Below, one piece after another: positions 49,426-52,637 of a DNA stretch of 63,156 bases; within the stretch, counting starts at the first letter, position 1; every line of letters starts with the position of its first letter. Source of the stretch: a virus; the IMG/VR virus record IMGVR_UViG_3300032236_000575, positions 1 through 63,156 of that record; one strand, written 5' to 3'. The position numbers and the translations under genes are program-made. The notes beneath the pieces are model-generated. The model was given only the letters and a program-made list of their open reading frames with translations, made no database searches and was not told the origin of the DNA.

Positions 49426-49494
49426 ATGCAAAAAACACGCTCTGACCTGCGTAAACGTCGCCGGCGAGAGGTGTTGTCCTACAACGAAATTGAG

Positions 49495-49574
49495 TGGAGC
49501 AGACGAGAATCGAACTCGCGTCCGGCCAGGTCCGCATGCGGATTTCATCTAGCCGTCGAAACCATCCCTGCCCC
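49495..49574 (-). ncRNA. tmRNA-like small RNA (tRNA-like domain only, about 80 nt)
   Basis: Read on the minus strand, the 5' end GGGGCAG pairs with CTGCTCC at the 3' end (7 bp) including G3-U70, the alanine-identity pair of tRNA-Ala and tmRNA. The tmRNA signature TGGTTTCGAC follows instead of a D-stem. A P2-like stem GGCTAG/CTGGCC is capped by TCCG-CATG-CGGA. The T-arm is GCGAG-TTCGATT-CTCGT. The discriminator is A and CCA is not encoded. It therefore has the tRNA-like domain of tmRNA but no tag-coding region or pseudoknots (normal length about 360 nt). No canonical D or anticodon arm can be drawn, so an ordinary tRNA is unlikely. A decayed tmRNA remnant is the main alternative. Confidence 0.7.
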
Positions 49575-49588
49575 TTGCCAATAAGCAA

Positions 49589-49646
49589 GGCTCGCCCCGC
49601 CGCTCAACCTGCGGATTGGAGGACGCAGGGAACAGCGGGGCGAGCC
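49589..49646 (-). terminator. Strong nested hairpin upstream of the tmRNA-like RNA
   Basis: Perfect 12-bp arms (GGCTCGCCCCGC with GCGGGGCGAGCC) enclose an inner 6-bp stem (CCTGCG/CGCAGG). A further small hairpin (CCTTGC-caataa-GCAAGG) at 49573-49590 borders the RNA 5' end. Together they could end the upstream transcript or guide processing of the small RNA. Confidence 0.7.
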
Positions 49647-51348: not shown

Positions 51349-52431
51349 CTACCCGAACATCCTCTCAATCGCACTCACTGCCGGATCATCACCCTCGGGA
51401 CCGAGATGGCCGTACACACCGAACGTTGTCCGAATGTCGGTGTGCCCCAACCGTTTCTGAATCACCAAAGGTGGAACACCGGCAGCGATAAGCCACGAAG
51501 CGTGAGTGTGCCGAAGATCGTGGATACGGGGTTGACGGTGCGCCGGTAGGCCCGTGCGCTTCATCGCCGGATACCACACGTTCGTGCGGAACGTGCCAAT
51601 CCTAATCTGATCACCGCGAGTGTTCGTGAACACGAAAGGCTCAGTAAGACAGAGCATTTCGAGTAAGTCTTTGCGGATCTTGATCGTGCGTATCGACTGC
51701 GGTGTCTTCGTCGGGCCGCTGCGGTAGCCGCTCTGACCTCGCCGGAAGCTCTTGTTAATCCTGACCGTGCAGTTGTCGATGTTCACGTCAGCCGGTGTCA
51801 ACGCCACCGCTTCGCCGAAGCGCACGCCAGTCTCGGCCAAGAACGTCACCAACGTCTTGTAGTGATCCGGTATCGCATCGAGAACCTTGCCGAACTCATC
51901 ACGCGAAAGAAACACCGGCTCCGCCGTTTTCGACGTGCGTGCGATCTTCACACTCTTGGCCGGATTCGCGTTCATGTCACCGCGATCGACAGCGACGTTC
52001 AGAGCAGCCGACAGAAGACCGTGCCGGTTGGCGATCGTCTTGCTCGACACCGTGCCCTCTTGAGCTAGCACCCACCGTTCCACATCGGAACGTTGCAACT
52101 CCCGCGCCGGGATCTTTCCGATGCTTGGCCGGATGTCCTTACGCAGGATCGTGCGGTACTCATCGCGAGTGTCTTCATTGATGCCCGTGCGGTCCTCGAT
52201 GTACCGCTCGACCATGTCAGCCACTGTGGCGTTATTGCCCCTTCTACGCTCCGCTGACTGACGAATAGCGTCCAGGGCACCACGAGCACCCAACGTCTTG
52301 ATCAGATCCGAAAATCGTTCCGCCATATCCATAGTCGGGAACGTGGTCGATGACTCGCGCCCCTCGATGCGATAGCGAACATTGAATGTTGTTGTGCCGT
52401 CTTTGCTGCGGTGGACCCGTATGGATGCCAT
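51349..52431 (-). CDS. int: Tyrosine integrase
   Basis: A 360-aa protein. It has an N-terminal arm-binding domain (ASIRVHRSKDGTTTFNVRYR), a core-binding domain (RNNATVADMVERYIEDR), and a catalytic domain with Arg in ETGVRFGEAVAL, HxxR in HDLRHTHASW, RLGHTDIRTTFG, and the Tyr nucleophile in VYGHL. It would recombine attP at 52.51 kb with host tmRNA DNA. It is complete, so the phage is probably temperate. Confidence 0.95.
   Translation of the reverse strand: MASIRVHRSKDGTTTFNVRYRIEGRESSTTFPTMDMAERFSDLIKTLGARGALDAIRQSAERRRGNNATVADMVERYIEDRTGINEDTRDEYRTILRKDIRPSIGKIPARELQRSDVERWVLAQEGTVSSKTIANRHGLLSAALNVAVDRGDMNANPAKSVKIARTSKTAEPVFLSRDEFGKVLDAIPDHYKTLVTFLAETGVRFGEAVALTPADVNIDNCTVRINKSFRRGQSGYRSGPTKTPQSIRTIKIRKDLLEMLCLTEPFVFTNTRGDQIRIGTFRTNVWYPAMKRTGLPAHRQPRIHDLRHTHASWLIAAGVPPLVIQKRLGHTDIRTTFGVYGHLGPEGDDPAVSAIERMFG
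52076..52092. promoter_or_regulatory. Degenerate palindromic site inside int
   Basis: CGTTCCA-CAT-CGGAACG has one arm mismatch and lies in coding sequence. It could be a real regulatory copy or chance. Confidence 0.3.
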
Positions 52432-52507
52432 GTGTACCTCTGTGTGGATAGCGGTGTGGAAACGATGTTTCTTGTCGCTTTTATCCCCTGCGAACTGCAG
52501 TTTTTAG

Positions 52508-52529
52508 TGGAGCTGCCGGGAATCGAACC
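52508..52529. other. attP: attP core matching the 3' end of host tmRNA (ssrA)
   Basis: On the minus strand this reads GG then TTCGATTCCCGGCAGCTCCA, the T-arm and acceptor 3' strand of mycobacterial tmRNA as I recall it. It lies 77 bp upstream of the integrase start in a gene-free stretch. Integration would restore the 3' end of ssrA. Some mycobacteriophages (for example cluster K) are known to use tmRNA as attB. Confidence 0.82.
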
Positions 52530-52637
52530 TCGCACCTAACAGCGATGTTTTTGCAGGTAGAAGCCACACTACACCCCTCGCAACACCACTGCGATATCCA
52601 CATGTGTGCCGATGCGAGCAGGGACGATGCACATCGA

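Follow-up and report, generated by a model that had tools for sequence, protein, structure and literature searches.

The closest described relative of the RNA reported here, a tag-less tmRNA-like RNA termed mini-tmRNA below, is the 'TLD only' tmRNA of mycobacteriophage DS6A (tmRNA Website tmID 11587), which PMC4131195 and PMC11915505 present as an actinobacterial phage RNA with little beyond the tRNA-like domain (TLD) and no tag reading frame. Both papers, citing Mao et al. 2009, report that a DS6A-type TLD inhibits tmRNA in E. coli. Full-length phage tmRNAs, such as those of mycobacteriophage Yucca and its relatives and of Streptomyces phage Wakanda, share their D-loop, T-arm and tRNA-array setting with the mini-tmRNA but keep a tag frame and pseudoknots and measure 280 nt or more, whereas the mini-tmRNA has neither. 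The tmRNAs of Melnitz and the crAss-like cr50_1 are permuted, unlike the mini-tmRNA, and the cr50_1 RNA was rejected as a mini-tmRNA for that reason. Tag-less TLDs are also kept in jakobid mitochondria and Mallomonadaceae plastids, the plastid forms being about 65 bp long (PMC11915505). Organellar tmRNAs without a message domain have been proposed to free the ribosome untagged, the mitochondrial forms helping the organelle rather than opposing a host (PMC11915505). Finally, the TLD fragments used for structures with SmpB and EF-Tu (PDB 4ABR and earlier; PMC3968760) bind SmpB and the ribosome without the pseudoknot ring; these fragments are engineered and do not have the conserved arm of the phage RNA.

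A 2025 tmRNA database lists 79 phage tmRNAs, and its 'standard, no CDS' category contains only 9 entries from all sources. One TLD-only RNA of a phage, that of DS6A, is already published, and by form (a phage RNA consisting of a TLD and little more) the mini-tmRNA belongs to the same type. DS6A is one reported case against a widespread family, and the two are likened by description, not by sequence. The scale of the family, its covariation, its invariant charging identity, its conserved arm and its carriage in isolates appear to be new, being not described in the searchable literature, outside which most subscription papers lie.

The mini-tmRNA of the window

The window is the whole stretch of DNA analysed, a viral record of 63,156 bases without end repeats. 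Judging from its integrase, WhiB gene, SPP1-type portal and tape measure, the source is a temperate siphovirus with an actinobacterial host; its terminase is 63% identical to those of mycobacteriophages such as TDanisky. The RNA (Table 1) runs from G1 at 49574 to the discriminator A at 49495, exactly as an earlier note, made from the sequence alone, had placed it. The cmscan match to RF00023 (59.4 bits, E=1e-20, 49574-49492) exceeds the gathering score of 47 bits and extends over the full model, 1-374, with 302 of the 374 positions deleted.

Table 1. Features of the mini-tmRNA locus and of the integrase region in the window
Feature	Positions	Strand	Score or basis
Tag-less mini-tmRNA (tRNA-like domain only), 80 nt	49495-49574	-	RF00023 59.4 bits; family model R1 64.7 bits, E 3e-14
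Acceptor stem 5' strand GGGGCAG; G3 pairs with U70	49568-49574	-	Sequence; G-U here in 73/73 units
tmRNA D-loop signature GGUUUCGAC; last C pairs with G of GGAC	49555-49563	-	Sequence, Rfam alignment
P2 5' strand GGCUAG	49549-49554	-	Pairs with 49524-49529; helix covaries in family
Conserved capping arm AUGAAAUCCGCAUGCGGAC, family motif AAAR-CCGC-AN-GCGGA	49530-49548	-	Alignment of family units
P2 3' strand CUGGCC	49524-49529	-	Sequence; family covariation
T-arm GCGAG-UUCGAUU-CUCGU	49503-49519	-	Sequence, Rfam alignment
Acceptor stem 3' strand CUGCUCC and discriminator A73; no encoded CCA	49495-49502	-	Sequence
Weak terminator-like hairpin with T-run, about 40 nt downstream of the mini-tmRNA	49428-49453	-	1 found vs 0.5 expected
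Integrase	51349-52431	-	
tmRNA 3'-end sequence GGUUCGAUUCCCGGCAGCUCCACUA, upstream of the integrase	52505-52577	-	12.8 bits, below threshold

The defining parts of the tRNA-like domain of the tmRNA class are all present, namely an acceptor with G3-U70, a stemless D-loop, a normal T-arm and A73, and the adjoining P2 (H2) helix is present as well. The acceptor, D-loop signature, T-arm and discriminator, all described in the earlier note, are seen in the sequence, the D-loop signature and T-arm also in the Rfam alignment. A linker, GGAU, joins the acceptor to the D-loop, P2 comprises 7 pairs (GGCUAG/CUGGCC and C20-G52), GGAC precedes the T-arm, and A73 is followed directly by ACUC and not by CCA. 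The same note had P2 closed by a loop of its own; the stem stands, but the cap is more than a loop, since a second short helix, the inner hairpin CCGCAUGCGG, and a conserved motif occupy its 19 nt. This cap is too short to leave room for a tag with a stop, and the tag reading frame with its resume codon and stop is absent, as are pseudoknots PK1-PK4 in the RF00023 alignment. Both losses had been noticed earlier; the conservation of the inner arm, AAAR-CCGC...GCGGA, adds that what is left between the P2 strands is not filler.

The locus is not an ordinary tRNA: the D stem and anticodon arm are absent and RF00005 gives no match there. Aragorn, proposed earlier as a further check, calls neither a tRNA nor a tmRNA at the mini-tmRNA. 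The folding energy of the single sequence is ordinary (z -0.97) and uninformative, so that the case for a real RNA is made by comparison, from at least 120 viral contigs and from covariation. No good sigma-70 promoter was found near the window copy. Between the upstream gene and the mini-tmRNA lies a perfect 12-bp inverted repeat, GGCTCGCCCCGC/GCGGGGCGAGCC, at 49589-49600 and 49635-49646; a strong hairpin directly 5' of the mini-tmRNA also occurs at loci L008, L011, L035 and L046. For the neighbouring 221-aa protein, relatives were searched for and none was confirmed.

Relatives, covariation and genomic settings

Searching with blastn, the window mini-tmRNA gave no match among phage records; 80-nt units diverge too fast for this method, so that patterns and a covariance model were needed. 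A pattern with 22 fixed bases, GGUUUCGAC-N20-50-GGACNNGNGUUCGANUC, run against predicted viral contigs, returned at least 120 stretches with the same compact unit, where about 0.1 match was expected by chance as estimated from base counts. Family units are 75-81 nt long. The covariation set comprised 73 distinct units, 47 clusters being taken as the non-redundant units, with positions assigned by their distance from fixed anchors, not by fitting a structure, and with 1000 shuffles as control. Compensatory change is seen among the 73 units at acceptor pairs 4-6, at all P2 pairs and at T-stem pairs 49, 50 and 52, and in the 47 non-redundant units every varying pair of P2, acceptor and T-stem beats all 1000 shuffles, pair 52 of the T-stem only narrowly (47 paired versus a shuffle maximum of 42). 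The covariance model R1 was built from 16 equal-length units, a limit set because MAFFT misaligns the variable linkers; its alignment scores 0.662 for covariation against 0.154 when shuffled. With 72 units, including the window copy, the score is 0.700, whereas shuffling lowers it to 0.147 and slid controls never exceed 0.113, and cells changed on both sides number 467 versus 131. Homologues with compensatory changes, which the earlier note had called for, therefore exist in numbers, and the mini-tmRNA is a real and probably common viral RNA family.

Against this variation some positions do not change. All 73 units share G1-C72, G2-C71, G3-U70, G7-C66 and A73 without exception, none of them being required by the search pattern, while acceptor pairs 4-6, which adjoin G3-U70, vary freely. 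A G-U pair is one step from G-C or A-U with pairing kept. That G3-U70 and A73 are constant while pairs 4-6 change points to alanylation, and selection on charging in turn makes more than SmpB titration likely. Alanine charging of tmRNA requires G3-U70 and A73, and SmpB requires the D-loop/T-loop contact (PMC3968760). The cap is likewise conserved across diverse P2 contexts, as AAAR then CC, mostly CCGC-AN-GCGGA, and the BRock mini-tmRNA carries the arm GAAAGCCGCACGCGGAAC within an otherwise different RNA. The family arm motif UAAAGCCGCA (49530-49548 in the window) resembles the PK1 3' strand of E. coli ssrA, GUAAAAAGCCGCA (L187). The arm is perhaps a vestige of pseudoknot 1, which is offered as a lead only.

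Outside IMG/VR, among isolates, the mini-tmRNA is found in Streptomyces phages LuckySocke, BRock, pSt2308 and Shaeky and in Stenotrophomonas virus Jojan60, with scores of 75-99 bits; GiJojo and Alone3 were also matched by blastn. The five isolate copies lie in or beside tRNA arrays, a setting comparable to that of the full-length tmRNA of Wakanda, and none is listed as an RNA gene in its record, which exposes a gap in annotation at the five loci checked. A scan of 84,980 genomes gave 28 matches, most of them weak and about 8 of them true minis; the pattern used there fixed U70, and these 8 were left out of the G3-U70 statistic. R1 matched 2 of 399 genomes of one order, one of the two being already known. 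The genome-contig copies inspected have phage-like settings, for example between tRNA-Phe and a terminase gene in Parafrankia (L150), and the rumen Bacillota copies (L125, L131) lie within long tRNA arrays. With so few genome matches, and these in phage-like settings, the class appears to be essentially viral.

Settings differ from phage to phage and include tRNA arrays, replication modules and positions upstream of a capsid gene. In L006, L018, L072, L096 and their relatives the mini-tmRNA stands between a head-module gene and the probable major capsid gene, some 130-380 nt before the capsid-like gene. A -10-like box is at the right place in 12 of 47 units, versus 6.6% expected. No protein neighbour is shared across groups, so that the RNA probably works with host parts. 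No SmpB gene is present in any of 26 carrier phage records, and host SmpB would thus have to serve; none of the carriers tested has a full-length tmRNA.

Possible roles in ribosome rescue

With a little better than even confidence, the mini-tmRNA is read as an alanine-charged decoy that would occupy host SmpB, EF-Tu and stalled ribosomes and so divert trans-translation from tagging. Once transcribed, the RNA would be matured and given its CCA by host enzymes, and host AlaRS would charge it with alanine via G3-U70. Host SmpB and EF-Tu would then deliver it, instead of host tmRNA, to stalled ribosomes with an empty A site, where it would take the nascent chain yet supply neither a tag frame nor a stop codon. 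Trans-translation would be blocked or diverted, and the phage may benefit in that unfinished proteins would escape the degradation tag while infection proceeds. The outcome could be arrest or release without a tag; net inhibition or diversion of tagging is favoured because of the inhibition of tmRNA that has been reported for a DS6A-type RNA in E. coli. In a crystal structure TLD-SmpB-EF-Tu suffices to occupy a stalled ribosome (PMC3968760), and competition with host tmRNA is plausible, the DS6A-type TLD being the published precedent. Extended to the whole family, with its own capping arm and its spread over phages of several bacterial groups, the proposal is that these RNAs enter stalled ribosomes as tmRNA does and turn the host away from 'tag and destroy' towards arrest or release without a tag, so that the virus would control ribosome rescue by means of an RNA; the case for this is evenly balanced. 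A family so widespread and strictly conserved would offer a testable general viral strategy and a naturally selected minimal TLD.

The precedent also bears on two neighbouring readings. According to the summary of Mao et al. 2009 in PMC4131195, a similar molecule inhibits tmRNA whether it can be charged or not, perhaps by titrating SmpB, which speaks for a pure sponge that binds SmpB off the ribosome, with charging and ribosome entry irrelevant. Inhibition independent of charging would not by itself explain a strict G3-U70, however, and a sponge has no need of a pair that stays G-U in every unit though its neighbours vary; this argues against a purely off-ribosome sponge, which is considered improbable. 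The strict alanine identity is what peptide transfer would need, and for this reason some weight, short of likely, is given to a tag-less rescue RNA that would accept the nascent chain and free the ribosome untagged with other host factors. The organellar tag-less tmRNAs are retained together with SmpB (PMC11915505), and placement in tRNA arrays, as for the full-length tmRNA of Wakanda, fits a rescue role too. On the other hand, there is no known agent for the release step without a stop codon, and in E. coli the DS6A-type RNA is described by the citing papers as inhibitory. It counts against the decoy reading that an alanine-charged TLD could act in rescue instead of inhibiting.

Two further explanations leave trans-translation aside. 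Many of the copies are intergenic within a single operon, some immediately ahead of the major capsid gene, others ahead of an SD-ATG, and hairpins are often directly upstream, as might be expected if the tRNA-like fold marked RNase P/Z cuts in phage operon transcripts or protected RNA ends. Any tRNA would serve as such a landmark, and the tmRNA-specific D-loop, GGAC, G3-U70 and A73 would be unneeded, which leaves this explanation quite unlikely. The other, that the RNA is left over from a host ssrA copy acquired where an ssrA-integrating phage attaches, takes up the suggestion of the earlier note that this phage appears to integrate into ssrA. For that suggestion speaks a tmRNA 3'-end sequence that adjoins the integrase and probably represents the attP core for integration into ssrA; the exact core was not found in the 399 genomes of the order searched. 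The tie to the mini-tmRNA is probably incidental: the attP-like copy differs from it in sequence and lies 3 kb away, and many carriers keep the mini-tmRNA in tRNA arrays or structural modules. The combination of ssrA 3'-end identity and a place next to the integrase was not found at the mini-tmRNA, which does not serve this phage as its ssrA attachment site. Both the covariation and the conserved arm attest to selection on the RNA, the unit belongs to a tRNA array in several carriers, the integrase of Shaeky is of the serine type, and a series of partly deleted tmRNAs is absent among the contigs scanned. A relic of integration, already disfavoured by the separate attP-like copy and by selection on stems and arm, is thus scarcely credible, and the decoy remains the preferred reading.

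Length classes and neighbouring forms

The spacer from GGUUUCGAC to GGAC is 25-32 nt in nearly all matches. Scans with spacers of 5-24, 36-66 and 67-97 nt returned 3, 6 and 7 loci, respectively, several of which either fall outside the TLD class or prove to be ordinary minis picked up through a false upstream match; they include no graded set of contigs with tmRNAs in partial deletion. Decaying tmRNA genes would spread in length, whereas the observed arm length is discrete.

Other forms were met beside this class. Still shorter mini-tmRNAs, 66-67 nt in length and lacking the conserved inner arm, are present at L183:1914-1980, L184:5575-5641 and L185:1661-1726. Compact tmRNA-like RNAs of 135-137 nt occur at L177:1623-1759 (+), L178:11477-11613 (-), L180:10689-10823 (-) and L181:5174-5308 (+) and have ACAGCAAAUACGGYAGG in common. 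Frames starting at GCA in these four would read ANTAGLTE* or ANTVGMFK*, and the RNAs are possibly minimal tmRNAs with tags that do not have the usual LAA end. In L171, L172, L173 and L174, GGTTTCGAC precedes a tmRNA 3' half and the TLD is abnormal; in L171, L172 and L174, GGTTTCGAC falls within a TTGACA...TATAAT-like stretch.
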